Shown piece after piece: positions 1-13,530 of a stretch of DNA of 32,299 nucleotides. The stretch's first letter is position 1, and each line of letters opens with the position of its first letter. Location: positions 1,457 through 33,755 of the forward strand of contig JAHFCY010000004.1 of NCBI GenBank assembly GCA_023249255.1, in the 5' to 3' direction. Position numbers and translations under genes: made by a program. The stretch comes from Candidatus Lindowiibacteriota bacterium (lineage in GTDB: Bacteria > Lindowbacteria > 2-12-FULL-62-27). The notes below the pieces were generated by a model. The model saw only the letters and a list, made by a program, of their open reading frames with translations. It searched no databases and was not told where the DNA came from.

Positions 1-855
1 CTCCGGCGGGCGGAGGGATCGTTGTCCTGCGCGCTGGTCGATCTGGACCGGTTCAAACAGGTGAATGATCTGTGCGGCCATCTGGTCGGCGATGACGTTC
101 TCCGCCGATTTTCGGAGATGCTCAAATCACGCGCGCCGGAAGGCAGTATCTGCGGACGCTGGGGTGGCGATGAATTTTTGATTATCTTCCCGGAGTCTCT
201 CTCCCGCGTTTCCGAGATCGAAACATGGGCGCGGGATATGGTCACGGCGACGGAACAGGAAAAAATGGGTGCGGGGGTGGGCGGATCGAATTCCGAATAT
301 GTCGGGGTCAGCGGCGGCGCGCTGATCGTGCGCGGGCCGGACGTACGCCTGGATCCGGTCAGATTGATCTACGATCTCGATGCCCTGCTCTATCAGGCAA
401 AGAAAAACAGGCGCAATCATATTTTTGTTTCGACCGATCCGAACCTCGGCCGGCAGACGGCGGATGCGGCCGCCGCGGCGCCGGGCGGGCGTGTCGTGTT
501 CGTCCTGGACGACAATGCGGACATCTGCGCCATCGTGCGCGATATTCTGTCCCGGCTGAGTGTGGAGTCGATGGTCTTTCAAACGACGGACGAATTATAC
601 AAGGCTCTGGACGAACGCACGCCGAATCTGATCCTCCTCGATCTCAAATTGCAGGACGCCGATGGAGTGGAAGTCTGCCGCAAGTTAAAACAAAATCCAA
701 ATCTTCATCGGACCAAAATCACCTTTTTGACCGCATTCACATCCGAGGAAGTCCGGCAGAAGGCGGCTGAGGCCGGCGCCGATGGATACATCTTGAAACC
801 ATTTTCCTACTCGAAGTTTGTCGGAGAAGTCAACCGCCTGCTTTCGGCTAATTGA
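1..855 (+). CDS. GGDEF domain - response regulator receiver protein (5' end outside window)
   Basis: The frame is open from base 1, so the N-terminus lies outside the window. The visible part begins inside a GGDEF (diguanylate cyclase) domain. It has the metal-binding segment DLDRFKQVND-x-x-GH and an intact GGDEF signature. I see no RxxD inhibitory site at the usual place before GGDEF. After a short Ala/Pro/Gly linker comes a C-terminal receiver domain with the acidic pair (VLDDN), the phospho-acceptor Asp (LLDLKL), the conserved Thr (FLTAF) and Lys (LKPF). All catalytic and phosphorylation residues look intact, so cyclic-di-GMP synthesis controlled by phosphorylation is plausible. A receiver placed after GGDEF is less common than the PleD/WspR order, and further domains may exist upstream. 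It ends 75 bp before tRNA-Met. Confidence 0.9.
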   Translation, partial: LRRAEGSLSCALVDLDRFKQVNDLCGHLVGDDVLRRFSEMLKSRAPEGSICGRWGGDEFLIIFPESLSRVSEIETWARDMVTATEQEKMGAGVGGSNSEYVGVSGGALIVRGPDVRLDPVRLIYDLDALLYQAKKNRRNHIFVSTDPNLGRQTADAAAAAPGGRVVFVLDDNADICAIVRDILSRLSVESMVFQTTDELYKALDERTPNLILLDLKLQDADGVEVCRKLKQNPNLHRTKITFLTAFTSEEVRQKAAEAGADGYILKPFSYSKFVGEVNRLLSAN

Positions 856-930
856 TCCCGCTTCGTGCATCCTTGACGCTCCCCTTGTCCCCACCGCCGC
901 TTTTTTGTATCACGTAGGCGTGCCGTTTTT

Positions 931-1004
931 GGCGGGGTAGCTCAGTCGGTTAGAGCGGGCGTCTCATAAGCGCCAGGTCACCGGTTCGATCCCGGTCTCC
1001 GCCA
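931..1004 (+). tRNA. tRNA-Met (CAT)
   Basis: The gene folds as a full cloverleaf. The acceptor stem GGCGGGG pairs with CTCCGCC with one G-T wobble, the discriminator is A and CCA is not encoded. The anticodon loop CTCATAA gives CAT at 965-967. The anticodon stem lacks the three G-C pairs of initiator tRNA and position 1 pairs normally, so this is an elongator Met tRNA or, less likely, a lysidine-modified Ile2 tRNA. A weak promoter could be TTGTCC (885-890) and TATCAC (908-913) with 17 bp spacing. The stop codon of the first cassette gene lies only 5 bp past the 3' end, so the cassette array abuts this tRNA. Confidence 0.92.
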
Positions 1005-1009
1005 TTGAT

Positions 1010-1666
1010 TCATCTGATCCTGCGCGTCTGCTCAATCTGTTTACCATCCCTTTTGAGCTTGGTATTTTTATCGATTTCCCTTATTCTCAATATGCAGACC
1101 AATACAGTCCCACATAATATAAATACAAAAAACATCAATGCGTATTTTTTACTTTTGTTCTGTTCGGTATCGAAATCAATCTGCGTTGGCGTGACTTTAT
1201 TATTGATGTGATCGAATAACTGTTGCGTGGCCCTATCCCGACCTATTATTGTTAATCCAGTATCACATGAAATGTAGAGGCTTTCGTTTCCATCCGGGAT
1301 CTCTATCCACGGAGCTATTTCCTTTTTTGTATGAAGAACCGCCCGTACGCCGAGTTTCTTATATACTCTTTGAAAAAGCTTTTCGCCCTTCATAGCCTTT
1401 GCGTCAAGGAAAACATCATCGCCATTTATAAATAATATTCCAGAAGCGGTCGCGGGTAAAAGTTTAAACATTTTCTTCAATCGATTTTCGTCCGTTATGA
1501 TCAGGCGATAGTAGATTGAATCTTTAGCAAGGGTCTCATGATGACTCAAAATATCGTCCTGAATTAAACGGCGTCTTTTTGTATTGCCTATTATGTATCG
1601 TTCTAAAGGCCAGTGTACAATATATACAAATACTCCGACCACAGCCACCAAAATTGCCGAATTCAT
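1010..1666 (-). CDS. Cassette gene 1: membrane protein of unknown function
   Basis: This 218-residue protein has an N-terminal hydrophobic segment (about residues 3-18), a soluble middle of about 140 residues and a second strong transmembrane segment (about 176-195), followed by a basic tail. I recognise no domain. The middle contains alternating strand-like and helical stretches and may be a small alpha/beta domain between two membrane anchors. The ATG at 1666 lies 24 bp from the attC site at 1690-1779, without a clear Shine-Dalgarno sequence. Its stop is 5 bp from the 3' end of the convergent tRNA-Met, so the attC site expected at its 3' end is missing. It is the terminal cassette of the array in this orientation. 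Confidence 0.7.
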   Translation of the reverse strand: MNSAILVAVVGVFVYIVHWPLERYIIGNTKRRRLIQDDILSHHETLAKDSIYYRLIITDENRLKKMFKLLPATASGILFINGDDVFLDAKAMKGEKLFQRVYKKLGVRAVLHTKKEIAPWIEIPDGNESLYISCDTGLTIIGRDRATQQLFDHINNKVTPTQIDFDTEQNKSKKYALMFFVFILCGTVLVCILRIREIDKNTKLKRDGKQIEQTRRIR

Positions 1667-1689
1667 TTTATTTTTGGGCGGGGCATGTC

Positions 1690-1779
1690 AGATAACGACC
1701 ACGCGCTCACACACGCCACCCATATACTCAACGGTGTGAGGGCGGCGATTGTCGCCCGCCGGAGAACGCCAAGTTATGT
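1690..1779 (-). repeat. attC site 1
   Basis: Boxes AGATAAC (1690-1696) and GTTATGT (1773-1779) flank an imperfect palindrome with the array's common core (GGTGTGAGGGCGGCGA then CGCCCGCC). The site lies between the start of cassette gene 1 and the end of cassette gene 2. Its right box (GTTATGTGCC) complements the left box of attC 2 in 9 of 10 positions. Confidence 0.75.
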
Positions 1780-1812
1780 GCCGTGCGTCACCCGGGTTTT
1801 TGCTTGTAAATT

Positions 1813-2478
1813 TCATTTTGTCACTCCTGTATCTTTATTCGAAATTGTTCCTAAATATTCTGTTAGAAAATATCCGTTTTTTACCGTTGAAGGAGGATAA
1901 TGCAATGTTCCATATTCGTTCCAAACCCATGCTTCGAGTTTATCATTTCTATCAAATAGCAATTGTAACGAGCAATAAATCTCCGGGTAATCTTTTAAGT
2001 TTTGGAACTGCCATTTTTCATTTCTGATATTGTTTGGATTAAATTCATCATCCAAATAAATCCAAATTGTTTTCTGCGGCAAAATCGAAAATGTAATCGT
2101 CTTATCTGCTGGTCTACGTAATCTCTCGGCAATGATAGCGGCAGGCATCCCGAATTCGAGTGAACTATAGACTCGTCCTGTCAACAATGTGTCGTCCCAT
2201 TGCGTTGCCTCTCGAAGTCCTGCGATGGAAACGCCCAATGCGATACCCATCATCAGAATTTTCCATCGTCGGATTATAAATAGGAGAAAACAAAACCCCG
2301 TGACCCAAATGATAAATGATTTCCAAGGGAAGTAGTACTCTAATGGAAAATTGAACGAAATAAGCATGTACGTAATAAACCAAACGATCAATGTCGTTAA
2401 TATGATTGTGGCGGCCTTATAAACACTGTTTATTAAATCGCCATGTGTATCTCCTGTCCGACTATTTTTCTGCCACAT
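1813..2478 (-). CDS. Cassette gene 2: membrane protein of unknown function
   Basis: This 221-residue protein has three closely spaced hydrophobic segments in its N-terminal half (about residues 20-40, 50-66 and 70-86), followed by a soluble C-terminal half of about 125 residues rich in Trp, Tyr and Phe. I recognise no family. The ATG at 2478 is preceded by AGGA at suitable spacing. The stop lies 33 bp from attC 1 and the start 22 bp from attC 2, so the gene fills its cassette with almost no spare DNA, as is usual for integron cassettes. Base composition is clearly AT-richer than the core genome to the right. Confidence 0.7.
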   Translation of the reverse strand: MWQKNSRTGDTHGDLINSVYKAATIILTTLIVWFITYMLISFNFPLEYYFPWKSFIIWVTGFCFLLFIIRRWKILMMGIALGVSIAGLREATQWDDTLLTGRVYSSLEFGMPAAIIAERLRRPADKTITFSILPQKTIWIYLDDEFNPNNIRNEKWQFQNLKDYPEIYCSLQLLFDRNDKLEAWVWNEYGTLHYPPSTVKNGYFLTEYLGTISNKDTGVTK

Positions 2479-2500
2479 TAATTATCCTGCGGCGGATGGT

Positions 2501-2591
2501 ACATAACGACCAGCCGCTCCCGCAGCCACCCCCCATATAGTTAGCGGCGTGACGGCGGCGAATGCCGCTCGCCGGGAGTGGCAAGTTATGA
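2501..2591 (-). repeat. attC site 2
   Basis: Boxes ACATAAC (2501-2507) and GTTATGA (2585-2591) bound a palindrome of the same family, with GTTAGCGGCGTGACGGCGGC in the loop side. The left box pairs with the right box of attC 1. The right box does not match the left box of attC 3, so this junction may have been rearranged. Confidence 0.75.
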
Positions 2592-2646
2592 TGGGTTGTA
2601 CCCCGCCCAACGTTCCCACGCTAGGACAACCTGTTTTGAAGCTTCA

Positions 2647-3027
2647 TCAAAAACTCTCCTCGTTATGTGAACTCGAAATATGTTTTGAAATCGATTTTGT
2701 ATCGATTTCTCCTTGATAATAGGTACGTCTTTCTTTGATAGTCCCAATGAATCTCGCGAATGCTGTATCACTGGTATTTAAATTACCAATATCCTTTTCA
2801 ATCTCTTCTAATCTGTGTATGTGATACCGAATCACTTCCGTTTCTTTATTCTCATGTAGGAGTTCTAGTGTGTACATCGAACTTACTGAATCGAGGCTAC
2901 GGCTTAACCGACGATCGTGTTCGACGGTATCCATTATAGATTCGGAACCACGAATATATCCCCAGATAAAAATGGAGACACCACATAGACTCCAGAAAGC
3001 GATTTTTTTAATCCGTTGGGATTTCAT
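2647..3027 (-). CDS. Cassette gene 3: small single-pass membrane protein, unknown
   Basis: This is a 126-residue protein with a basic N-terminus (MKSQRIKK) and one transmembrane segment (about residues 8-24), then a soluble, highly charged and probably helical region (about 35-105) that may form a coiled coil. The topology suggests a signal-anchored periplasmic helical domain. I recognise no family. The ATG at 3027 has a GAGGGA Shine-Dalgarno-like sequence upstream. It is the only gene in its cassette, between attC 2 and attC 3. Confidence 0.65.
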   Translation of the reverse strand: MKSQRIKKIAFWSLCGVSIFIWGYIRGSESIMDTVEHDRRLSRSLDSVSSMYTLELLHENKETEVIRYHIHRLEEIEKDIGNLNTSDTAFARFIGTIKERRTYYQGEIDTKSISKHISSSHNEESF

Positions 3028-3088
3028 GGGATTGATCCCTCTAGTTATTCTTTTCGTCCGGTTGTATCAAATACCCGTGGGGTATGTC

Positions 3089-3177
3089 GCGTAACGAGCA
3101 AGCGTTCACGCACGCCGCCTTATGTGTCAGCGGTGTGGGGGCGGCGAATGCCGTCCCCCGGACACGCCAAATTATCT
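3089..3177 (-). repeat. attC site 3
   Basis: Boxes GCGTAAC (3089-3095) and ATTATCT (3171-3177). The right box has A in place of the invariant G (ATT for GTT). On the minus strand this damages the inverse core, while the expected cleavage core (GTTACGC) is intact. The outward sequence of the right box matches the left box of attC 1 in 14 of 16 positions, not its neighbour. Confidence 0.72.
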
Positions 3178-3198
3178 GACGTGCCCAGCCCCGGGTTT

Positions 3199-3852
3199 TC
3201 ATTTCTGTTCTACAACTTTCGATGCGATCAAAATAACCATGCAAATTAAGCCGATTGCTAAAGAGGAAAACAATATAATTTTGATGAGCAACGGGTTTTG
3301 ATTTTCAAAGCCTTCGCGGGGAGACATCTGATGAATTTCATGTAATGGTTGTTCATCTTCTATAGGGAATTCGAGTTTTTGTTCAAAGCAATCTTTTATA
3401 GGTCCAAAAAAACATTTTGACAGGAAGACACCGTATACGAGGGGTATTAACGAGGTAGAAACACTATCGGTTAATAGTCCAATGTTACTGCCCTGGTTAA
3501 GATATTCCGGCAGCCGAACGAAAATGCAGATGATGCCCAAAAGAAAACCAAACCACCCTCCAATCATCGAGTATCGAGAAAATGTCGTAAATAGTCGTAC
3601 ATAGATCTTCAATTCTGTTTCATCGATCTTTATACCGTGAGAAAAGGAATGCCTTATTGCAAGCCCAAATTTCTTTATATCGCTGCTACGGGAGGCCATC
3701 AACGTTCCACCAAGTGTGATACCGAGAACAATTCCGACAGCACTCGGAATGATAAACATGCTCAAGTCCAGTTTTTCAATGCCCATAAAAATACCAATGC
3801 CTGTAAGAATCAGAATCAGGCCAGAAATTCTTTCTATAGTCATTTTTCTCAT
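3199..3852 (-). CDS. Cassette gene 4: MotA/TolQ/ExbB-like membrane protein (paralog of cassette gene 7)
   Basis: This 217-residue protein has an N-terminal pair of transmembrane helices ending in IIPSAVGIVLGITLGGTL, which resembles the MotA pattern of a P-S pair followed by IVxGGTLGA. A cytoplasmic stretch follows. A second membrane part carries GWFGFLLGII and then LIPLVYGVFLSKCFFGPI, matching the MotA/ExbB pattern of a glycine-rich helix and a TLYGxxxAxxxxxP helix. A further C-terminal transmembrane helix (about 190-210) is extra. It is clearly paralogous to the gene at 7593-8231. The family forms ion-conducting stators or energises outer-membrane processes; no MotB, TolR or ExbD partner is visible, so the role here is unknown. 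AAGGA precedes the ATG. Confidence 0.72.
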   Translation of the reverse strand: MRKMTIERISGLILILTGIGIFMGIEKLDLSMFIIPSAVGIVLGITLGGTLMASRSSDIKKFGLAIRHSFSHGIKIDETELKIYVRLFTTFSRYSMIGGWFGFLLGIICIFVRLPEYLNQGSNIGLLTDSVSTSLIPLVYGVFLSKCFFGPIKDCFEQKLEFPIEDEQPLHEIHQMSPREGFENQNPLLIKIILFSSLAIGLICMVILIASKVVEQK

Positions 3853-3893
3853 TTTTCAATCCTTTTGTTTTTTACTCTGGGCCGAGACATGGC

Positions 3894-3900
3894 GTCTAAC
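3894..3900 (-). repeat. Orphan integron core site (GTTAGAC on minus strand)
   Basis: GTCTAAC sits 42 bp upstream of cassette gene 4, where every other cassette gene has the left box of an attC site. It fits RYYYAAC/GTTRRRY exactly, but the palindrome that should follow is absent and unrelated DNA begins at 3901. It looks like the left remnant of an interrupted or exchanged attC site. Confidence 0.45.
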
Positions 3901-4302
3901 TGCCTGATATCCGTGACGGAGTTGCGTGAAAATATCGTGGATTGACGAAGTCCAATTCCGAGAAAAAGGTTAAATAGGGATGCGCGACGTAAGGGATCGT
4001 GTGTTGTAGCGAGATAAGCCGCTGTGAGGGCATATTCACGCAAGTGAATGGTTGGAGTCATATTCTGCAAGAATATATCAGACGGGTGAAAGAAGTGAAA
4101 GGATTTTCATGCAGGGGAAAGAAATATGGCGGCAGACGGAATTGAACCGCCGACACAACGCATCGATGGAATTACCCTGATAAATGGGCCGGCGCAGGCG
4201 GAAAGATGGGAATGGGAACACGCGTAATTTCCCTTGCCAAATTCCACGAGGCCGGAGACAATAGGGCGTAGATCGAAACCAACGGACACGGAGGTATAAA
4301 AC
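3901..4302. other. About 400 bp without a supported gene; two tandem hairpins
   Basis: No convincing coding sequence is seen. Two compact hairpins stand in tandem: ATTCAC-GCAA-GTGAAT (4034-4049, a GNRA-type tetraloop) and ATATTCT-GCA-AGAATAT (4060-4076). They are followed by the tRNA-Phe-like fragment at 4127-4158 and then about 145 bp leading to hicB. A minus-strand frame at 3849-4070 ends with an ATGA overlap with cassette gene 4, but it lacks a ribosome site and crosses the orphan core, so I do not call it. Confidence 0.5.
4127..4158 (-). pseudogene. 3' fragment of tRNA-Phe (possible distal att repeat)
   Basis: This segment repeats the last 32 nt of the tRNA-Phe gene at 10561-10633 (end of the anticodon arm, variable loop, T arm and acceptor 3' strand). 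With two flanking bases the match is 33 of 34 positions (4125-4158 against 10559-10592). The one difference lies in the acceptor strand. Orientation is the same as the intact gene, so the two copies are direct repeats 6.4 kb apart. The rest of the tRNA is absent. This is the geometry of an att duplication at the 3' end of a tRNA gene. Confidence 0.8.
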
Positions 4303-4506
4303 ATGAAGCTGAAAGTCGTCGTCGAAAAAGGTGAAGACGGATTTTTCGTCGCCCATTGTCCAGTACTCAAAGGATGCTGGACGCAGGGCAAGACAGAGAA
4401 ACAAACGTTAGAGCGATTGAAGGAAGCTATTGGGTTGTATTTGGAAGCTGATCCCGCCGAGAAGAAGACCCGCCCGGAACACAAAGTCGTTTCCCTTTCA
4501 ATTTGA
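4303..4506 (+). CDS. hicB: HicB-family antitoxin
   Basis: This 67-residue protein matches the short HicB fold: a first strand (KLKVVVEKGEDGFFVAHCPVLKG), the central CPxLxGCWTQGKT motif and the helix LERLKEAIGLYLE. HicB is a degraded RNase-H-like domain that binds and neutralises HicA. No separate DNA-binding domain is present at the C-terminus. CGGAGGT lies 7 bp before the ATG. The gene overlaps hicA by 4 bp. Order is antitoxin then toxin, and both are on the plus strand, opposite to every cassette gene around them. Toxin-antitoxin pairs are well known as stabilising cargo in large integrons. Confidence 0.9.
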   Translation: MKLKVVVEKGEDGFFVAHCPVLKGCWTQGKTEKQTLERLKEAIGLYLEADPAEKKTRPEHKVVSLSI

Positions 4507-4727
4507 AACCGCCGCTCGTATCCGGCAAAGAAATTTGCACAGTGCTTGAACGTGCCGGATTCCGGTTCGTCCATCAGCGTGGAAGCCACGTGAAGTATCG
4601 GCATGACCAACGCGGCAAGACAGTCATCGTTGTCATGGACAGCGAAGTCGACCGCTGGACACTGAAAGGAATGCTCCGGGATGCTGGAATCTCCGTCACG
4701 GAATTCGTCCGACTCTTGGGAAGGTAA
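4503..4727 (+). CDS. hicA: HicA-family mRNA interferase toxin
   Basis: This 74-residue protein has the double-stranded-RNA-binding-like fold typical of HicA: SGKEICTVLERAGF, then RGSHVKYRH with the catalytic His in the G-S-H motif, a strand (VIVVMD), and the helix LKGMLRDAGISVTEFVRLL. HicA cleaves mRNA and is held inactive by HicB. The proposed start is TTG at 4503, overlapping the hicB stop as TTGA. The next candidate (a GTG inside the first helix) would remove part of the fold. Translational coupling to hicB is likely. Nothing in the sequence suggests inactivation. Confidence 0.9.
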   Translation: MKPPLVSGKEICTVLERAGFRFVHQRGSHVKYRHDQRGKTVIVVMDSEVDRWTLKGMLRDAGISVTEFVRLLGR

Positions 4728-4921
4728 GACCCACATTCGTAATATTCAGCCGGACTGCTTTGAACTCGGTTTCCGATCCAACCACTGTAACGCATCAGTA
4801 GCGACTATTGACGCGCCTCACAGAATCGTCACAATCAGGCTCCACGCAACCGTGGTGCGATCTGGGGGCAACAGACATATCAAGACACCTATCCGGCGTC
4901 CGGATCACGCAAATCCGAATT

Positions 4922-4977
4922 GGTTGTCAGCGGCGTGAGGGCGGCGAACGCCGCCCGCCGTGAGTGCCAAGTTACAC
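4922..4977 (-). repeat. Truncated attC site 5
   Basis: Only the right two thirds of the family repeat remain, from the TTGTCAGCGGCGTGAGG segment to the right box GTTACAC (4971-4977). The left box and about 30 bp of the left arm are replaced by the DNA carrying hicBA. The hairpin ATCCGG-CGT-CCGGAT (4891-4905) stands just before the break. The right box shows moderate complementarity to the left box of attC 6. Confidence 0.7.
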
Positions 4978-5035
4978 GCCTTACAGCGCCCCACAAATGT
5001 GCGCTTGGACAACCTGTTTTCATTCGCATACATAA

Positions 5036-6346
5036 TCAGAATGATACTTCATATTTTTCATTTTCCATCAGAAAAGTTGATATGGAGCGTTTTTTTGGAA
5101 CATATTCTGGTTGTTGGCCTGTTAAAGGATTTATCAAAACACTCTGCGATAATTTCAAATCCCGAAGTGTAATAGGTAGCACTTTTTGATCATGCAACTT
5201 ACAGGCGATATATGTAATATTAAGCCTCGCATTAATACTTGCCCTGTACATCAACATCCTCTCATATCTTAGAAGTACTCCATGGGTGGACCAATACCAC
5301 GTACGTCCCATGTAGTTTGTTGGATAATTCCATTTAATACGAAGAAATCCAAATAGGCCGTTGTATCCTTCTGACATCATTTCTGGCTTTTTTCTGTATT
5401 CTGGGAGATATGACGTATCGACCATAAAGAACGGAAGTTTAGCGGCTTCAATTATTGAGGCCATGTCATTTCGTGTCCAGTTGATTGTCTCGTCTGCATC
5501 ATAATACAAATACATATGAAATCTTTGCCACCAACCGTATTCGGCTTTTTCTTTTGGGTGTTCTCCTACTGTAAATATAATCAAGGGAGGTGCCGTTTTG
5601 ATATGCATTAATAAGTTTTTGTCTTGTTCGTAGTCGTAGACCAACGAATTAATAATGCCCGTGTCTTGTAAACGAGCCGTAAGCAAATCGGAAGAAAGGT
5701 CGCTAAAGGAAACAGGAAAAGTTTCAGGAATAAATTTAATGCAATCCGCCGCGGCCTTGGCACCTTGGTCTTTGACCGAATTGCCTAGAAGGGTAAGAAT
5801 AGTAGGCCCCTCCAACATGTCTAATTTTGTTCCTATCTCTAAAATCAGACGTGTGGTTTCTAATGCATTTTTGAACTCACCATTTTTCAATAGCCATCTG
5901 ACTTTTAGATGAAGTAACCGTGTTGCATACATATGGAACGGCAATCGAGGTATATAGCCAGAACGAGTGATGGTGTCTTCAAAGGGATACGCCATAGGCG
6001 AGGCTTTGATTAATTTCGCATACAAGGCGATGCTGTCCTCATAAGGCAATAAAAGATCGGGGATGGTTTCTGGCAGATTTGATATTTTGTATGTATCCAG
6101 AAAAGGCATGACCCCATCCGTTAAGTGCCATATGATTTGATTTGATGTGTCACTCGTAAAGTCATTGAGATTTTGGCCGTTTTTTATTGCCATCGGATCT
6201 TTGTTTCTGTGTAGGACGAGTGACTCTTCGATGGGCTGTCGATTGCTTTTTTTAATGCAGGCCTGTAAATATTCGATTGAATATATGAGCACATAACCAA
6301 ATATCAGGAATAGGGCCGTTATTCGAATTATATTTCTTAGTTTCAT
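5036..6346 (-). CDS. Cassette gene 5: signal-anchored protein of unknown function
   Basis: With 436 residues this is the largest gene in the array. An N-terminal hydrophobic segment (about residues 7-27) acts as signal anchor; the rest appears soluble and extracytoplasmic. Much of the middle is predicted helical and rich in Leu (RLLHLKVRWLLKNGEFKNALETTRLILEIG), reminiscent of TPR-like repeats. Near the C-terminus, a block reading LPITLRDLKLSQSVLINPLTGQQPEY resembles the 'P..L..L..DP.tG.P..Y' tail seen in many uncharacterised proteins of uncultured bacteria. I cannot assign a function. The ATG at 6346 lies 31 bp from attC 6 without a strong ribosome site. At over 1.3 kb it is long for a cassette. 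Confidence 0.68.
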   Translation of the reverse strand: MKLRNIIRITALFLIFGYVLIYSIEYLQACIKKSNRQPIEESLVLHRNKDPMAIKNGQNLNDFTSDTSNQIIWHLTDGVMPFLDTYKISNLPETIPDLLLPYEDSIALYAKLIKASPMAYPFEDTITRSGYIPRLPFHMYATRLLHLKVRWLLKNGEFKNALETTRLILEIGTKLDMLEGPTILTLLGNSVKDQGAKAAADCIKFIPETFPVSFSDLSSDLLTARLQDTGIINSLVYDYEQDKNLLMHIKTAPPLIIFTVGEHPKEKAEYGWWQRFHMYLYYDADETINWTRNDMASIIEAAKLPFFMVDTSYLPEYRKKPEMMSEGYNGLFGFLRIKWNYPTNYMGRTWYWSTHGVLLRYERMLMYRASINARLNITYIACKLHDQKVLPITLRDLKLSQSVLINPLTGQQPEYVPKKRSISTFLMENEKYEVSF

Positions 6347-6377
6347 GATGTCAGTAATTCAATCTGCGCTGTATGTC

Positions 6378-6486
6378 GCGTAACGACCAGGCGCTCACGC
6401 ACGCCCGGAGCGAAGCGGAGGGCGTGCGGGAGGGCCGGATCAGGACTCCGACTCCATTCCCGACCGCCGGCAGTGCCAAGTTAGGC
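6378..6486 (-). repeat. attC site 6 (long subtype)
   Basis: Boxes GCGTAAC (6378-6384) and GTTAGGC (6480-6486). The central part is a longer variant (CCGGAGCGAAGCGGAGGGCG ... TCAGGACTCCGACTCCATTC) shared almost exactly with attC 7. The match continues outside the site into the hairpin at 6502-6528. Confidence 0.78.
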
Positions 6487-6501
6487 GACGTAGTAGCCGC
6501 C

Positions 6502-6528
6502 CCACGGCGGCCACGATGGCCGCCGTGG
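6502..6528 (-). other. Perfect 12-bp hairpin beside attC 6
   Basis: CCACGGCGGCCA-CGA-TGGCCGCCGTGG is a perfect 12-bp stem with a 3-nt loop. It lies between the 3' end of cassette gene 6 and attC 6, and an identical copy lies beside attC 7 (7517-7543). No T-run follows on either strand, so it is not a standard terminator. It could block read-through, or be a dispersed palindrome carried with this attC subtype. Confidence 0.7.
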
Positions 6529-6562
6529 CGCAGTGCCGCCGTATCCGATTTACAGAATGTCA

Positions 6563-7324
6563 TCATACATCCCATGCGATATTTGAAATAAGCTTGCATC
6601 GGTAGCATTTGAAATGAAAATAATCATGCCAAGGTTTCTCCAGCAACCATTTGCCGCCACACTTTGGACATTTCCGCCGCTTTTCATCTTTTTTGGATCG
6701 CCCATAATATTTGTTGAGGTAATAATATGTTGGGATTTTGATTTCCTTTTCGATATTTCTACATAACTCGTACGCATCTTTTGAGAGTCGGCTAGAAAAA
6801 GAAGCTACTTGTTTATGACCCCAGTGTTCACCCACTCCTGACCCTACGAAGAGTCCATCGCATCTGTTGTGCGCCTCTTTCCACAATTTTATACCCAGTA
6901 GTCTTTCTCGAGTAAGTTTGAATCTGTATATGGGGATAGGTCTTTTACACTGCCCACAACGAAGTGGGGATTCATATGAAAAATATGTCGTGAGGAAATA
7001 AACACTTGATGGTCGTTTGCAGTGACAAACAGGCCCGGCCTCGGGCGCAGTACCCAATATCTTTATACTCGGTTTTCTATCGGACTTGTCTAAAATCTCT
7101 TTGTACGCTTTGAGGGCTATAGTGGTGTGAAATCTGCTTGATAAAGAGTTTCGTTCGTGGCTGACGATAATCTGACGAGGTATCTTATGGTTTAAAATGG
7201 TTGTGTAATCTGCAATCTGCCCGCTCGTCATAAGTTCTGCGGAGTATGACCAAAGGTCGATTAAATAATCTTCTATCCGAATCTTTTTTGTATCAGGGTA
7301 AAATTTATACTCGAGTACGTACAT
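6563..7324 (-). CDS. Cassette gene 6: DUF2310-family zinc-ribbon protein
   Basis: This 253-residue protein starts MYVLEYKFYPD, like the DUF2310 family (Zn-ribbon, possibly nucleic-acid-binding). Diagnostic blocks are YFLTTYFSYESPLRCGQCKRPIPIYR in the middle and, at the C-terminus, IPTYYYLNKYYGRS followed by RKCPKCGGKWLL...HFKCYRCKLISNIAWDV. Two CxxC pairs form the C-terminal zinc ribbon and another CxxC lies in the SPLRCGQC block. Length fits the family. The frame stays open upstream to 7429, but that part runs through attC 7; the ATG at 7324, preceded by GGGAAA, agrees with the family start. The family's biochemical role is unknown, so its presence as a mobile cassette is informative. Confidence 0.85.
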   Translation of the reverse strand: MYVLEYKFYPDTKKIRIEDYLIDLWSYSAELMTSGQIADYTTILNHKIPRQIIVSHERNSLSSRFHTTIALKAYKEILDKSDRKPSIKILGTAPEAGPVCHCKRPSSVYFLTTYFSYESPLRCGQCKRPIPIYRFKLTRERLLGIKLWKEAHNRCDGLFVGSGVGEHWGHKQVASFSSRLSKDAYELCRNIEKEIKIPTYYYLNKYYGRSKKDEKRRKCPKCGGKWLLEKPWHDYFHFKCYRCKLISNIAWDV

Positions 7325-7392
7325 CGCTTTTATTTCCCATGTTATGTTTTCCAGCCACCACGATGGCGGCTGGCCTTGGACGGTGCTATGGC

Positions 7393-7501
7393 AGATAACG
7401 ACCAGGTGCTCCCGCACGCCCGGAGCCAAGCGGAGGACGTGAGGGAGGGCCGGATCAGGACTCCGACTCCATTCCCGACCGCCGTGAGTGCCAAGTTATG
7501 C
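7393..7501 (-). repeat. attC site 7 (long subtype)
   Basis: Boxes AGATAAC (7393-7399) and GTTATGC (7495-7501). The interior is nearly identical to attC 6, including the long central insert. The right box with its flank (14 nt) complements the left box of attC 8 in 13 of 14 positions. Confidence 0.8.
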
Positions 7502-7516
7502 GACGTAGTGGCCGCT

Positions 7517-7543
7517 CCACGGCGGCCACGATGGCCGCCGTGG
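7517..7543 (-). other. Perfect 12-bp hairpin beside attC 7
   Basis: This is an identical second copy of the 27-nt palindrome at 6502-6528 (12-bp stem, CGA loop). It lies between the 3' end of cassette gene 7 and attC 7. Its constant position relative to the attC site suggests it was duplicated together with the site. Confidence 0.7.
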
Positions 7544-7592
7544 CGCAGTTACCGCCGCATCCGAATGTTTACGAATGTCCAGTCTCCATCTT

Positions 7593-8231
7593 TCATTTTT
7601 GCATAGTTCCAATTTTCCGCGAAACCAAAATGACCACCATGATCAACGTGATGGCGAAGGATAAAAACAAGATCATCTTAAACAATACTCGGTGGAAGGA
7701 TTCCGGCGGCCGCTGAGTTTGTACAGCGAGACTATTCCGCCCACTTTCGGATGGGTGCTCAATCTGCCATTCAAACCAGTTTTTCAGTGGATCAAAGATG
7801 AATTTTGAGGAGAAAGTGCCATAGACAAGCGACATGGATGCCAACGTAATGCCGCCGGAGAGTACCACAAAATTTTTATCTTGCGCTATAAATTGCTCTA
7901 GGGAACTCAAGACACTAATAATACCCAAAAGTAGCCCAAACCAGCCTGCATACATGGAATATCGCGACAACATGGAATACAGCCTCACATATATCTTTAA
8001 CTCTTCCTGATTGCATTTGACTCCCTCTGAAAATGCAGTTCTAAATGCGAGCCAGCATTTTTTAAGATCGTTTTTGTCTTCAGACATCCAGGTCGCGCCT
8101 ATTGTAATACCGAAAACAATTGCGGTCGCACTTGGCGATATAAACATTCCTAAATCTAGGCGTTCAAATGTCATTGTTATACCAATGGCCGTGCCGATGA
8201 GAATTAGGCCGACAATTTTTTCCAGTCTCAT
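7593..8231 (-). CDS. Cassette gene 7: MotA/TolQ/ExbB-like membrane protein (paralog of cassette gene 4)
   Basis: This 212-residue protein shares layout and many motifs with the gene at 3199-3852: the N-terminal KIVGLILIGTAIGI helix, MFISPSATAIVFGITIGATWM (compare the MotA IVxGGTLGA pattern), ELKIYVRLYSMLSRYSMYAGWFGLLLGII and SMSLVYGTFSSKFIFDPLKNWFE. The second half resembles the MotA/ExbB helix pair with a YGxxxxxxxxxP motif. A last transmembrane helix (about 185-205) is extra. GGAG lies 8 bp before the ATG. No ExbD- or MotB-like partner follows. Two diverged copies in separate cassettes show repeated acquisition or cassette duplication. Family assignment rests on motif patterns and could be wrong. 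Confidence 0.72.
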   Translation of the reverse strand: MRLEKIVGLILIGTAIGITMTFERLDLGMFISPSATAIVFGITIGATWMSEDKNDLKKCWLAFRTAFSEGVKCNQEELKIYVRLYSMLSRYSMYAGWFGLLLGIISVLSSLEQFIAQDKNFVVLSGGITLASMSLVYGTFSSKFIFDPLKNWFEWQIEHPSESGRNSLAVQTQRPPESFHRVLFKMILFLSFAITLIMVVILVSRKIGTMQK

Positions 8232-8279
8232 TTAATTTTCTCCATCGGTCTTAAAATATCTTTCTCAAACAGCTTCCCC

Positions 8280-8303
8280 CCATCCGCCATGGATGGCGGA
8301 TGG
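8280..8303. other. 24-nt palindrome upstream of cassette gene 7
   Basis: CCATCCGCCAT-GG-ATGGCGGATGG is an 11-bp perfect stem with a 2-nt centre. It sits between attC 8 and the start of cassette gene 7. A related imperfect palindrome (CCAGCC...GGCTGG) occupies the same place beside attC 7, around 7354-7376. Both could be insertion relics or part of the cassette leader. Confidence 0.6.
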
Positions 8304-8323
8304 CCATAGGCGGCCACTATGTC

Positions 8324-8412
8324 GCATAACGACCAGGTGCTCCCGCACGCCGCCCCAGTTGTCAGCGGCGTGAGGGCGGCGTATGCCGCCCGCCGGGAGC
8401 ACCAAGTTATGC
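8324..8412 (-). repeat. attC site 8
   Basis: Boxes GCATAAC (8324-8330) and GTTATGC (8406-8412) are mutually complementary and bound the typical GC-rich palindrome. The right box and flank complement the left box of attC 9 over 16 of 17 positions, the best such junction in the array. Confidence 0.82.
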
Positions 8413-8455
8413 GTCGTGCCCCGCCCCACATAGCTACGCCCACAAAACCTTAATC

Positions 8456-8932
8456 TCATTTTTGCGTTGTTTTAGAACTATTTTTCTTTATCTGTTCGAT
8501 GATTGCCTTTGGATTTGCCAACCAAAAACTTAACAAACTCAACATTACAAATGATATCTGAGGAGACTGAGCGCCACCCAGCATTATCCAAACCAGTCCA
8601 TAAATCGAAATAGACTGACAAAACGCCCAGAGAACAATCGCATAGACTAAAATAGGGTCTTGGCCCTTTGTTGTTGGTCCTGTCGTGGGCTTATAATATA
8701 ATCTCAAAAGAAACGGTTGAAATTTAAAATTTGTGAAGATCGCTATGGATTCGGCCAGAGCAAGAGCAACCAGAATAGGGAACATAATATCTGGTGGTAT
8801 AATTTCCTTCTTTCGCTGATCTATCAATATTTTTCCTATATATAGAAACGCCCAATTTGAGTGAGTAAATGCCCAATATATGTATTTCATCGTTGGTGGT
8901 GGGTTATCTGTTATACATGTTTGTGATTGCAT
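8456..8932 (-). CDS. Cassette gene 8: four-helix membrane protein with proteolipid-like motifs
   Basis: This 158-residue protein has about four hydrophobic segments (about residues 17-36, 48-68, 93-117 and 122-140). Two of them carry related motifs, ALAESIAIF and FCQSISIYGLVW, which resemble the ion-binding helix of rotary ATPase c/K subunits (E-x-I-A-I-Y-G-L). The first has a Glu at the usual carboxylate position and the second a Gln. This likeness is short and may be convergent, so I do not call it an ATPase subunit. AAAGGA precedes the ATG at 8932; a later ATG (residue 15) is possible. It is the only gene in its cassette. Confidence 0.68.
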   Translation of the reverse strand: MQSQTCITDNPPPTMKYIYWAFTHSNWAFLYIGKILIDQRKKEIIPPDIMFPILVALALAESIAIFTNFKFQPFLLRLYYKPTTGPTTKGQDPILVYAIVLWAFCQSISIYGLVWIMLGGAQSPQISFVMLSLLSFWLANPKAIIEQIKKNSSKTTQK

Positions 8933-8995
8933 TTTGTCGATCCTTTCGGTGTCGGTTTCTCAATTCTTGTTTTCTTCCGTCCTGCGGGGCATGAC

Positions 8996-9068
8996 GCATA
9001 ACGACCAGCCGTTCCCGCACGCCGCCCCAGATGTCAGCGGCGTGAGGGCGGCGAATGCCAAGTTAGGT
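8996..9068 (-). repeat. attC site 9 (short form)
   Basis: Boxes GCATAAC (8996-9002) and GTTAGGT (9062-9068). At 73 bp it is the shortest complete site. It lacks the GCCGCCCGCC arm seen in its relatives, so the stem is shorter on one side. The right box complements the left box of attC 10 in 14 of 16 positions. Confidence 0.78.
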
Positions 9069-9119
9069 GACGGCGCCCGCCCCACATTTCTGCTTGGACA
9101 ATCTGCTTTACTATGAAAT

Positions 9120-9335
9120 TCATTTCGCAATGTCCTTCGATGCTTTGTCTTCATATATCTGCTGTTTTTCAATCTTCGCCTGTTTAGCTTCTTTTAATGC
9201 CCTCATCAATTTCGGTATCGCGGCGGCCGCCAAAATCCCAATAATAGTAATGACCAGAAGAATCTGACTTGAGCTATCAAAGATTACAGAGGTTTTCTTT
9301 GTTTTTTCATCCTTGTCCATCAAAAAAAATGACAT
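9120..9335 (-). CDS. Cassette gene 9: small membrane protein with pilin-like helix
   Basis: This 71-residue protein has one hydrophobic helix, SSQILLVITIIGILAAAAIPKLMRA, which closely matches the N-terminal helix of type IV pilins and pseudopilins (ELLIVIAIIGILAAIAIPNL). It lacks the features of a real prepilin: no G-F cleavage site, no Glu at +5, and the helix begins near residue 23. The C-terminus is a short charged helix, too small for a pilin globular domain. The ATG at 9335 directly follows the stop of the upstream zinc-finger gene, with GGAG in its last codons, so the two genes are probably co-translated in one cassette. A TTG at 9353 is a less likely start. Confidence 0.62.
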   Translation of the reverse strand: MSFFLMDKDEKTKKTSVIFDSSSQILLVITIIGILAAAAIPKLMRALKEAKQAKIEKQQIYEDKASKDIAK

Positions 9336-9336
9336 T

Positions 9337-9711
9337 CTATTTCCACTCTCCAAATCTCTCTAAAATACATCGGTTACATATAGAAGCGTTTTTTCTCTGG
9401 ATTATTTTTATATTGTAGGTCTCTTTATCAACTCCACAGATAAAACACTTCGCATTTTTGTCGGTGCCAAATAAATCGTTTGCAGATTGGTTGATTGGTT
9501 TTATGAGGTGAGTATCCTTTTCAGTGTCGACCTCTGGGTGGGACATCACCTTCTCAATCATTCTGTCAAATGCGGGGTCTTGTTTTAGCCATACCCTATA
9601 TTGAAGAAGACATAGGTGACAAATGGCTTGATCTGATTTTCTGATGACGTTTGTGGGTATTCGGCGGTTTTCGCAGAAACTGCATTTTATGAGTTCATCT
9701 GTTGAAGTCAT
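9337..9711 (-). CDS. Cassette gene 10: protein with two ClpX-type C4 zinc fingers
   Basis: This 124-residue protein has two copies of a CxxC-(17-19)-CxxC finger: CSFC...ICHLC near the N-terminus and CFIC...ICNRC near the C-terminus, joined by about 55 residues. The spacing and the I-C-x-x-C-I/L ending match the zinc-binding domain of ClpX, which dimerises and binds adaptors and substrates. No AAA+ domain follows. A stand-alone double finger could act as an adaptor or decoy for ClpXP, or simply bind protein or nucleic acid. The frame opens at 9741 inside attC 10, but the ATG at 9711, with GGAG 11 bp upstream, is preferred. It shares a cassette with the gene at 9120-9335. Confidence 0.7.
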   Translation of the reverse strand: MTSTDELIKCSFCENRRIPTNVIRKSDQAICHLCLLQYRVWLKQDPAFDRMIEKVMSHPEVDTEKDTHLIKPINQSANDLFGTDKNAKCFICGVDKETYNIKIIQRKNASICNRCILERFGEWK

Positions 9712-9739
9712 ATTATCAATATCTCCTGCGGGCGATGTC

Positions 9740-9833
9740 ACCTAACGACCAGGCGTTCCCACACGCCACCCCACAGGACGTCAGGGCGGCGTGAGGGCGG
9801 CGAATGCCGCCCGCCGTGAGTGCCAAGTTAGGT
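9740..9833 (-). repeat. attC site 10
   Basis: Boxes ACCTAAC (9740-9746) and GTTAGGT (9827-9833) fit RYYYAAC and GTTRRRY perfectly and are complementary. Outside them GATGTC and GACGTC extend the stem by six more positions with one G-T wobble. This is the most canonical site in the array. Confidence 0.85.
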
Positions 9834-9891
9834 GACGTCCCGCGCCCCGAGTCTCGTATCCGGACAATTCTACGTTTCATCTAAGAATTTA

Positions 9892-10290
9892 TCATTTCGT
9901 TGACTTGCCCGCTTCGTTTCCGAGGCGTTTACGGACAGCATCTAATTTCTTCTGCATATCTTCTGATGGCAACAATCCGTATGCACGAGAATACTCGGCC
10001 TCTGCATGTACCGCATCACCTAACGCTAAGTAGATATTGCCGAGGTACTCATGGGCATAATAATCGCTTGGATGTTCTGTTGCCAACTTCTCAGCCACCT
10101 TCAAAGCTTTCTGATAATCGGATTGTCGCATCGCCAATGATACGTCCCTCCATGGATTGTCGGCTTCGCGTGAATAAATCCAAGCACATAACGCAACTGA
10201 TAGCCCGAGAGCTATCATCATACCCAACTGGTTCGCCTTGCGTAATTTCCTCAGTTCGTCAAGAATCTGTTGGTTTATATCGCTGTCCAT
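9892..10290 (-). CDS. Cassette gene 11: TPR-containing membrane protein
   Basis: This 132-residue protein has a cytoplasmic N-terminal helix (DINQQILDELRKLRKANQ), one transmembrane segment (about residues 23-41) and an extracytoplasmic helical part with two TPR-like units (SDYQKALKVAEKLATEHPSDYYAHEYLGNIYLALGDAVHAEAEYSRAYGLLP). TPR pairs of this kind mediate protein binding. AGGAGG lies 7 bp before the ATG at 10290, the best ribosome site in the array. It is the cassette nearest tRNA-Phe and so, in the inferred transcription direction, the first gene of the array. Confidence 0.72.
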   Translation of the reverse strand: MDSDINQQILDELRKLRKANQLGMMIALGLSVALCAWIYSREADNPWRDVSLAMRQSDYQKALKVAEKLATEHPSDYYAHEYLGNIYLALGDAVHAEAEYSRAYGLLPSEDMQKKLDAVRKRLGNEAGKSTK

Positions 10291-10330
10291 CAATTGTCCT
10301 CCTTTTATATTTTATCCTGCGGGCTATGGC

Positions 10331-10421
10331 GACTAACGACTAGGCACTCACGCGCGCCGCCCCAGATGTCAGGGCGGCGTGAGGGCGGCGAATGCCGCCC
10401 GCCGGGAACGCCAAGTTATAC
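10331..10421 (-). repeat. attC site 11
   Basis: Boxes GACTAAC (10331-10337) and GTTATAC (10415-10421) with the usual central palindrome. No gene lies between this site and tRNA-Phe, so on the right side it is an orphan attC: either a gene-less cassette or the scar of a lost one. Confidence 0.78.
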
Positions 10422-10560
10422 GACGGCCGCCGCCCTGTTTTGACCTGTGTGGGTCTATAGTCTTTGACTCTCAATAGACGCAATCTTTTTATCTGATTGT
10501 AAATTTCGATACCCCACGTGTTGCATCCGACAAAAGCGTTCGAATCCTCTCGAAAAACTA

Positions 10561-10633
<73 letters not shown>

Positions 10634-10663
10634 GCAAACCCTGCACAAAATTTCAGGATGACA

Positions 10664-10693
10664 CCCTTACTACGTCTATCGAACTTTAGTCAA
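10664..10693 (-). promoter_or_regulatory. Candidate sigma-70 promoter for tRNA-Phe
   Basis: On the minus strand TTGACT (10688-10693) is followed after 18 bp by TAAGGG (10664-10669). Transcription would start about 25 nt before the tRNA. The -35 box is good and the -10 box poor. The promoter is divergent from the gene at 10720. Confidence 0.4.
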
Positions 10694-10719
10694 CGCAATG
10701 ATATATCGAAAAGTAACTT

Positions 10720-13530
10720 ATGACCATACACCAAACCGGGCGCGGGCGCGCATTGGCGGCAGCGGTCGTGCTCTGCATCGTCGTTGTCGCGCCGGGCGCC
10801 AGCCACGCCAAAACCGTTCAACCTGTTGCGGAATGGTTTGATCCGAATCTTCCCCTGTTCGCCGCCGACGCTCTGGTCGATCCGAATCACGAAGCCGTCT
10901 ATGTCGCCGACCAGATCACGGCAAGGATTTCGAAAATTTCGCTCAGCGCGGACGGCAGTGCCGTGGTGATTCCGGGTGGAGGGACGATTGAATCTCTCGA
11001 GGGCGCCGGATTTTCTCCAACACGGGGCGACGTCCTGGCGATCGTCTCGCGGCGGGCCGAATTTCGGACGCTTCTGGAGGGTGACATCAAACTCGACTGG
11101 GCGGCCGGGAGACTGCGGATGTTTGACGGGCGGCGGATATTCGGCGGCAACCGATGGATCGAGATGGACCCGGCGCGGCCGCAATCGACGGCGGCTGTCC
11201 GGGACGCACCGACGCTCGCAAATGACTCCGCGCGGGATCCATCCCTGCCGGCGGAAGCGGTGGCTGAGATGGCGGGGCTGGGATTTCGAATCCGACCGTT
11301 ACGATGGGCGCTTCGAAACGACATTCTTTCCGTGATCGACGTGCAAGGCCGTGCGTTTGTTTTCCTTCGTGACAAATCCGCCGCGGGACGGTCCCGGCTC
11401 CGGCTGCTTCTTCAAATTGACAGTCTCACATCGCGGCTGGCTGATTTCGATGACGCCGAATTGACCAGCCTATCGGCCGATCAGATCGACATCCGGATCG
11501 GAAAAGAGATCTGGGCGGCAACCGTGTCGGATGATCCTTACACGGGGGAACGCGCCTTTGCGTTCAACGCAACAAAAACCGGCGGGAGCGGGGGATCCGC
11601 GCGGCTGGCGGATGCAGCCGGAAAAAGAAAACTGCAGTTGCCATATCAATGGACCGATTTTCTGCGCCAGCCCCAGATCCTGGCCGAGGGACCGGCGGGA
11701 CAACTCATTTCCTGCAAAATCCGGCTGACGAATCTCGGATTGAAATCCCTGTTGATTCTGTCCGAATCGAACCGGATCCGCATTGTTCCGTGGCGGAGCG
11801 ACGACGAGTTGCGGCCGGAAGACATCGTGACGATGCCGGAGGGATTTGCGGTTCCGGAACCGCCCATGTGGCGGCTCATCGGATGGTCGGCGGAATTCAA
11901 CGGTCTGATTTCGATCGGCAACAGCCGATTTCAGCGGCTGGCCCCGATCCTGTCGGAAAAATCACCCGGGAGGGACGGCGGCGGACGGGCGGATATGACG
12001 GGCGGCTCGGACACGGTGATCGAAACATCCGGATTCTTCGCGCTCGACGCCGAACAATCCATTCTGGCCGAATGGCCAAGGGTGGAATGGCCGCGCACAA
12101 CGGCATTCACCAGCCTGCAAATGAATGCCGAACCGATGGATTTGACGGTGACCCAGACCGGCGAGGTGTTCGTTCTGGCCCGCGATGCCGAACACGGTCT
12201 GCGGCTGTTTCAAATTTCGGAAGTACCCGAGCCGGTCCTCGACATTCCCGACCACATGGATCCGCTGTTTCTACCGGGCGGACGGCCGACGATTTTGTCC
12301 CGGGTTGAGAGACATCAGACAACCTGGATTGTCGCCGGCCAACCGCCGACGCTGATTCGGAAGGAGACATTTGACGCAAACTGGCATGCCGGTCAGGGCA
12401 TTGCCTGGCGCGACGAATCAGCCGGATTCATTCTCTTCAACACCGATCCGGCCGGTCAGAGCGATACCGGAGTGACGATACCGATCGAGGGATTGCACGA
12501 AGTCCGCCAGGCGCTGATTCAAAGTCCGGACGTGTGGCTGCTCGAAACCGATTCCGGCATTGTCCGGTTGGACGCCCGGGATCCGACCGAACCCGACGTG
12601 TCGGTGATCGATCCCCAGGGCGGAGAACTTCGGGTGTCGCCATTCGGTCCGCTCTTCACCGTGCCGGCGGCCGGGACGTCCGAAGTATTCGTGGTGGGGC
12701 CGGGCGGAAATAAAATTTCTCTGGGGCGTTTCAATGCGTCGTGGGAGGCGATGGGCGCCACGCTCGACCGGCTGTTCTTCAAGGATCGCGCAACAGATAA
12801 AATTTTGATCGTGCCCCGGCACGCGGCCGGAGACGACGTCGCCCAGGTGACCGGGCGGCTCGAATTCAATTACGACGATCCGTCCAACGTGCTTCTCTGC
12901 GCCATTGGAGATGAAGCATACTGCATGATGGTCCGGCCCAGGACGCCGACGTTTCTGCTCGGACCCATGCCATACGGAAGCTACATGCTGGATGTGTCAG
13001 CCGGCGGATTCGATCTTGCATCGCCGCCCGTCTTTTCGGTGACCCAGCCTGAAATCATTCTGCCGGACGTGAAACTGGTGAAGTCCCTCGATTTTCTATA
13101 TCGGCGCGCGGTTTCCTACGAAGAATCAGGCAACGCCGACATGGCGAAATTCAACTACGACATGTATCTGTCGCTTTCGTCGGACGGCGGGTCGGCAGAC
13201 GACGCGCGATCGGCCATTGTGCGATTCTTTGCGGACGATTCCCGCTGGAATGACATGATCGATTTTTATCAGAAAACTCCGGCAGGCACGCGCTGGACGG
13301 CGGATGCCCTGCGCCTCGTGTTCGACCATTTGCCGAGACTTGCCGAACGGCTCGACATTGCCCGAAAACTGATGTCCCAGGCCGCCAGACCCGATCTTGG
13401 GCGCCTGGAGCTGTTGTTCTTTCTGTATAAATACACGCTCGATCCGGCCTACAAATCGACGGCGGGCGAACCGGGCGTGCCGCCGGTCTATGCAAAATTT
13501 TTCGAAAGTTTCGACCGGTTTCGGAAATGA
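10720..13530 (+). CDS. Secreted 936-residue protein of unknown function
   Basis: An N-terminal signal peptide ends around ASHA-K (residues 1-30), so the protein is exported. The long middle part has many short strand motifs (EAVYVADQITARISKISL, EVFVLARDAEHGLRLFQIS, KILIVPRHAAGDDVAQVTG) in the style of a beta-propeller or NHL-like protein, but I cannot delimit repeats with confidence. The last 150 residues are helical and TPR-like (DFLYRRAVSYEESGNADMAKFNYDMYLSLSSDGGSADDARSAIVRFF). I recognise no family. The start ATG has no strong ribosome site but fits the signal peptide. It overlaps the phospholipase-D-family gene downstream by 4 bp (ATGA), so the two are probably translated together and act in the same compartment. 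Confidence 0.85.
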   Translation: MTIHQTGRGRALAAAVVLCIVVVAPGASHAKTVQPVAEWFDPNLPLFAADALVDPNHEAVYVADQITARISKISLSADGSAVVIPGGGTIESLEGAGFSPTRGDVLAIVSRRAEFRTLLEGDIKLDWAAGRLRMFDGRRIFGGNRWIEMDPARPQSTAAVRDAPTLANDSARDPSLPAEAVAEMAGLGFRIRPLRWALRNDILSVIDVQGRAFVFLRDKSAAGRSRLRLLLQIDSLTSRLADFDDAELTSLSADQIDIRIGKEIWAATVSDDPYTGERAFAFNATKTGGSGGSARLADAAGKRKLQLPYQWTDFLRQPQILAEGPAGQLISCKIRLTNLGLKSLLILSESNRIRIVPWRSDDELRPEDIVTMPEGFAVPEPPMWRLIGWSAEFNGLISIGNSRFQRLAPILSEKSPGRDGGGRADMTGGSDTVIETSGFFALDAEQSILAEWPRVEWPRTTAFTSLQMNAEPMDLTVTQTGEVFVLARDAEHGLRLFQISEVPEPVLDIPDHMDPLFLPGGRPTILSRVERHQTTWIVAGQPPTLIRKETFDANWHAGQGIAWRDESAGFILFNTDPAGQSDTGVTIPIEGLHEVRQALIQSPDVWLLETDSGIVRLDARDPTEPDVSVIDPQGGELRVSPFGPLFTVPAAGTSEVFVVGPGGNKISLGRFNASWEAMGATLDRLFFKDRATDKILIVPRHAAGDDVAQVTGRLEFNYDDPSNVLLCAIGDEAYCMMVRPRTPTFLLGPMPYGSYMLDVSAGGFDLASPPVFSVTQPEIILPDVKLVKSLDFLYRRAVSYEESGNADMAKFNYDMYLSLSSDGGSADDARSAIVRFFADDSRWNDMIDFYQKTPAGTRWTADALRLVFDHLPRLAERLDIARKLMSQAARPDLGRLELLFFLYKYTLDPAYKSTAGEPGVPPVYAKFFESFDRFRK

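Follow-up and report, generated by a model that had tools for sequence, protein, structure and literature searches.

How did a toxin-antitoxin pair come to lie, on the opposite strand to its neighbours, in the middle of an array of gene cassettes that ends at a tRNA gene on either side? The question is raised by a locus in a draft genome of Candidatus Lindowiibacteriota bacterium (366 contigs, 88.7% complete; G000). The window, i.e., the whole stretch of DNA that was analysed, comprises 32,299 nucleotides. In a preliminary description, the hicBA block of this locus was thought to interrupt an attC site and to stabilise the array against loss.

Cassette array and attC sites

The array runs from tRNA-Met to tRNA-Phe; its genes are small, share the minus strand and are separated by attC-like sites. 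Fifteen attC sites from G000 and two family relatives (G001 and G002) could be aligned along some 95 positions, and all of them share the ends TAAC/T ... TCGTTA. The covariance model derived from them (R1) was run, with filters off, on positions 1-11000 of the window. It found nine full attC sites, scoring 61-111 bits each, and one degenerate match at 4884-4980 (42 bits), which is a truncated attC. In the rest of G000, R1 finds a single degenerate site; all full attC sites of the genome sit in this array. The GTTRRRY core is uninformative on its own, as it occurs at chance frequency (41 observed vs 45 by chance), and the evidence for the sites is hence their full attC context.

The distal half of the array (1010-3900, minus strand) holds four genes and three attC sites (1687-1782, 2498-2594 and 3086-3180). 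Its last gene stops at 1010, 4 bp from the 3' end of tRNA-Met (CAT; 930-1005, plus strand), which was identified by ARAGORN and is conserved in G001 at L048:2014-2087. The proximal part (5036-10440, minus strand) contains six attC sites (6375-6489, 7390-7504, 8321-8415, 8993-9071, 9737-9836 and 10328-10424). It is followed by a truncated cassette end (10459-10553, minus strand), which comes within 7 bp of the 3' end of an intact tRNA-Phe (GAA; 10561-10633, minus strand), also called by ARAGORN and conserved in G001. Both boundaries of the array are tRNA 3' ends. The truncated segment beside tRNA-Phe has whole, repeated homologues in the cassette array of G001, which sits elsewhere in that genome, at the end of contig C33 and the start of C35. 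A segment of about 94 nt preceding attC is present there in four to five copies (L030:16527-17376, L031:1-81). Two attC regions of the window with larger loops, 6372-6534 and 7387-7549, are 91% identical over 163 nt and are flanked by a palindromic GGCGGCCACGATGGCCGCC motif.

The likely partner of the array is an Xer-like tyrosine recombinase encoded on another contig. One orthologue per genome was found (G000:C6:185-1330, L034; G001:C33:124661-125824, L030:12662-13825; G002:C52:9124-10155, L113), the copies of G001 and G002 being 53% and 51% identical to that of G000. In G001, some 1.3 kb separate the gene from the attC array downstream of it; in G000 and G002, the gene is located at the end of a contig. 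In the alignment of the protein with IntI4 and XerA, the segment specific to IntI (IntI4 residues about 175-245) has no counterpart. The protein carries an N-terminal extension of about 100 aa with a weak match to HARP (PF07443; E 3e-4 in G001 and 0.08 in G000, neither of which passes the curated cut-off). If it is the cassette recombinase, the combination of a missing IntI insertion and a HARP-like domain would be unusual.

The hicBA block and its boundaries

Between the two parts of the array lies a block of 1,022 bp (3901-4922), delimited by sequence, composition and the R1 results. On its distal side stands a bare R' core, GTTAGAC (3894-3900, minus strand). This R' box, G|TTAGAC when read from 3900 to 3894, belongs to the next cassette. 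All intact attC sites read TCGTTA, whereas the junction at 3900 reads CAGTTA, with CA in place of the TC found in every intact site. Similarity to attC thus ends exactly at the G, which places the junction at the G|TT crossover point. Such precision suggests that this end was made by the array's own recombinase rather than by random breakage.

On the proximal side, the truncated attC (4923-4977, minus strand) terminates the cassette that carries the gene 6346-5036. Read from 4977 to 4923, this site retains R'' (GTGTAAC), L'' and the loop down to ...CGCTGACAAC, and its last bases are ...GCTGACAAC at 4923. About 27 nt of the L'/R' arm, present in intact sites, are missing at the 4922/4923 junction. 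The complementarity of R'' and R' in the split site does not discriminate between models of its origin, as intact sites vary equally. The bare core, the left truncation and the size of about 1 kb had been recognised in the preliminary description, which placed the start of the truncated attC one nucleotide lower, at 4922.

The GC content of the block is approximately 50%, between that of the cassettes (about 40%) and that of the chromosome (about 60%). As described before, its only genes are hicB and hicA, on the plus strand vs the minus strand for every cassette gene. HicB (4303-4506; 67 aa) gives a weak but consistent match to its families (PF21748/PF15919; UPF0150/HicB_lk, 27 bits), and its best solved relative is TTHA1756 (PDB 2yzt, E 8e-8). 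The hicA gene (4503-4727; 74 aa) has a TTG start, overlaps the hicB stop by 4 nt and belongs to PF07927 (E 4e-17). HicA has the invariant Q..GSH motif with the catalytic His, and GSH is unchanged in six homologues. Both reading frames are intact. Judged from its sequence, hicBA is predicted to be an ordinary type II toxin-antitoxin pair. HicA is sporadic, with relatives in 31 of 290 genomes and none in viral contigs or phages. At DNA level, no close relative of the block was found in plasmids and phages; the sole match spanned 36 nt and overlapped the tRNA copy described below.

Downstream of hicA, a short conserved stretch (4747-4804, minus strand) resembles a C-terminal coding remnant (..ATDALQWLDRKPSSKQSG*). 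It is 77% identical to G000:C89:580-632 over 53 nt, and on C89 this sequence stands 3' of an ORF6N-like gene. On the minus strand, both stretches encode the common peptide end ATDAL.W..RK..S.QSG.

The block has the marks neither of an insertion sequence nor of a cassette. Its ends had been judged unlike those of an insertion sequence, and indeed no transposase, no terminal inverted repeats and no target duplication were found in it, and HicB and HicA are the sole products identified. An integron cassette carries its own attC at one end and its gene in the direction of the array. Here the genes are reversed, and the R1 scan of 3901-4883 revealed no attC. No attC-like fold better than those of shuffled sequences was detected downstream of hicA (4728-4922; z -0.7) or upstream of hicBA (z -1.0).

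tRNA-Phe copy and tRNA hotspot

The block contains a copy of the 3' end of tRNA-Phe, a key feature that the preliminary description had overlooked. Positions 4127-4158 (minus strand) are identical at 31 of 32 positions to nucleotides 42-73 of the tRNA, and the similarity extends to about 40 nt at 93% with the flank 4119-4126. Rfam does not recognise this fragment. Together with 10561-10592 of the intact gene, it forms a 6.4-kb direct repeat on the same strand (E about 1e-10 within the window). Integrative elements that target tRNA genes classically leave such a repeated tRNA 3' end behind as their scar. Elements with tyrosine recombinases target tRNA 3' ends, carry toxin-antitoxin cargo and decay to CIMEs (PMC5704250). 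As no integrase ORF was found within 3901-10560, only the CIME form would fit here.

The content between the two tRNAs varies between relatives, as in a CIME. G001 keeps the order response regulator, tRNA-Met, interval, tRNA-Phe and a 936-aa gene. Its interval, however, consists of 14.5 kb of unrelated genes (membrane proteins, greA and an hsdM/hsdS/hsdR-like locus of restriction-modification type, which ends near tRNA-Phe) and lacks both a cassette array and a copy of the tRNA. The part beside tRNA-Phe (L048:10043-16670) holds greA and an hsdM/nuclease/hsdS/RhuM/hsdR-like locus, named from the translations alone. Moreover, no HicA match was obtained at 1e-8 in G001 and G002. The different interval and the absence and sporadic distribution of HicA show that the block has not been conserved at this position, and mark the interval as a hotspot. 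Conservation in place across distant relatives had been named beforehand as an observation that would refute the interruption of the array, and none was seen.

Are such surroundings unusual for a toxin gene? In a survey of 57 HicA loci (0.9 Mb), 5 of 16 tRNAs lay at most 500 bp from hicA vs about 1.3 expected (binomial P 0.007). In a control of 56 ParE loci, the figure was 5 of 12 vs 1.06 expected, i.e., about fivefold (L198, L209, L215, L228 and L229). The notion that tRNA proximity is special to HicBA was dropped, as ParE genes are enriched to the same degree. The setting is thus ordinary for toxin-antitoxin genes and needs no array-specific function. Partial tRNA copies bracketed the toxin-antitoxin gene in 2 of the 57 HicA loci vs none of the 56 ParE loci, a difference that is not significant. 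These two were all the partial copies found in the HicA loci, and both bracket hicBA. The bracketing is suggestive, yet statistically it does not set HicBA apart. Replication with four new HicA loci revealed no nearby tRNA.

Origin of the block and comparison with known systems

The tRNA-Phe 3' end within the block makes hicBA look like leftover island cargo, not a device built into the array. The block is probably a remnant of a genomic island that targeted tRNA-Phe, CIME-like in that attachment sites were kept and the integrase was lost, with an ordinary type II hicBA as its cargo. We infer the following order of events. A site-specific element would have integrated at the 3' end of tRNA-Phe, leaving the repeat 10561-10592/4127-4158 as its scar. 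The element would have decayed, with its integrase lost and the hicBA cargo left behind. Cassettes would have ended up inside the repeat pair (10560-4923) and beyond it (3900-1010) as pieces of array were joined at the hotspot. During this joining, the attC at 4923-4977 would have been cut, the proximal junction being a deletion, and the cassette recombinase may have attached the distal cassettes to the block at a site other than an attC. The pair is most likely the addiction module of the former island, if it is active at all.

The strand of the tRNA-Phe copy, which is that of the intact gene, and the position of the array against both tRNA 3' ends speak for this origin. So do the different interval of G001, the lack of attC, integrase and insertion sequence in the block, its composition unlike that of the cassettes, and the tRNA-bracketed hicBA loci of Methanoregula and G126 described below. 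Several observations stand against it. The block side holds a single copy of the repeat and no integrase remains. No homology was detected between 3901-4126 and the sequence flanking tRNA-Phe in G001. Furthermore, the same cassette family occurs on both sides of the presumed attachment site, which simple island insertion does not explain.

Alternatively, a continuous array from tRNA to tRNA may have been interrupted later. A 1-kb hicBA fragment already bearing the tRNA-Phe copy, acquired from another island, would have entered one attC by illegitimate or integrase-assisted recombination, with the deletion of about 27 nt. Indeed, the pieces on either side together make one attC minus these nucleotides, MotA-like cassette genes that are paralogous (47% identical) stand on opposite sides of the block, and this one array holds all full attC sites of the genome. 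However, a tRNA-Phe copy close to tRNA-Phe must then be a coincidence, and neither a target duplication nor end repeats were found. What separates this alternative from the island remnant is weighting alone, by which it is a real but clearly less probable account. The earlier view that the block interrupts an attC site stands as far as the split-site boundaries are concerned. As a simple insertion into one attC, it gives way to island or hotspot DNA at a tRNA, the better reading because the block repeats the 3' end of the very tRNA-Phe at which the array stops; cassettes may have been added on both sides of the block.

Another, unlikely, proposal is that hicBA pairs move as minimal integrase-less units, bracketed by copies of tRNA ends and mobilised in trans, and that such a unit became the assembly seam of the array at a tRNA hotspot. 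Two further loci would join the block as independent examples. The nearest HicA homologue found in named genomes belongs to a Methanoregula MAG (L049, JAJRCF010000002.1). There, tRNA-Asp is followed by 113 bp, hicB, hicA, about 20 bp and a 45-nt copy, 87% identical, of the 3' part of tRNA-Asp (L049:4576-5262). This stretch of about 0.6 kb without integrase is possibly a minimal tRNA-targeted unit in an archaeon. In G126 (L157:7782-10478, contig C13), hicBA and a phosphoesterase-like gene occupy 2.6 kb between tRNA-Ser and 53 nt copied from the 5' part of that tRNA, again without integrase.

It is improbable that the module was recruited and kept because it stabilises the array, as had first been suggested. 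Its frames are intact, and toxin-antitoxin cassettes do stabilise the superintegron of Vibrio cholerae (PMC11551772). Nevertheless, the block has no attC, is thus not a cassette and bears the marks of an island; HicA and ParE genes adjoin tRNAs in general, and a single pair stands in a small array. Stabilisation by hicBA, plausible from the V. cholerae case, would be an incidental by-product. The presence of a toxin-antitoxin pair among attC sites does not by itself make it a cassette that stabilises the array.

It is very improbable that the block is a normal cassette turned around, its attC belonging to a different family, a possibility that the preliminary description had itself named as a refutation. 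The gene pair lies within the array and one junction falls exactly at G|TT, but the flank folds are not significant and the block has no R1 match. Least probable of all is an assembly chimaera at the repeated attC sequence, for although the genome is fragmented and the attC core 4923-4977 has long near-identical stretches in common with other sites, the identical word shared at the junction is short, the block occurs once and its coding sequence is unbroken, and one side is joined exactly at the recombination crossover point.

The locus indicates how a cassette array and tRNA-targeting islands, two kinds of mobile system, can become mixed at a tRNA hotspot. The block and the archaeal tRNA-Asp unit jointly offer a concrete, testable case of very small tRNA-bracketed toxin-antitoxin modules. 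The pair itself is of the UPF0150-HicB/HicA type in its hicB-hicA order, 4-nt overlap and HicA GSH, with no notable difference. As in the V. cholerae superintegron, a type II pair is found among cassettes; there, however, such cassettes own an attC, whereas the block shows no visible site for cassette excision. The array qualifies as a CALIN, an attC cluster without integron integrase defined by at least two attC sites of one family, with its nine full sites and one cut site and no integrase gene at the locus, but differs in being bounded by two tRNA 3' ends. The closest likeness for the block is a CIME or decayed IME at a tRNA 3' end (PMC5704250), with which it shares the direct repeat, the toxin-antitoxin cargo, the lack of an integrase and the variable content at a conserved tRNA. 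It differs in that the repeat pair also encloses DNA of the cassette array, and the cassettes continue beyond it.
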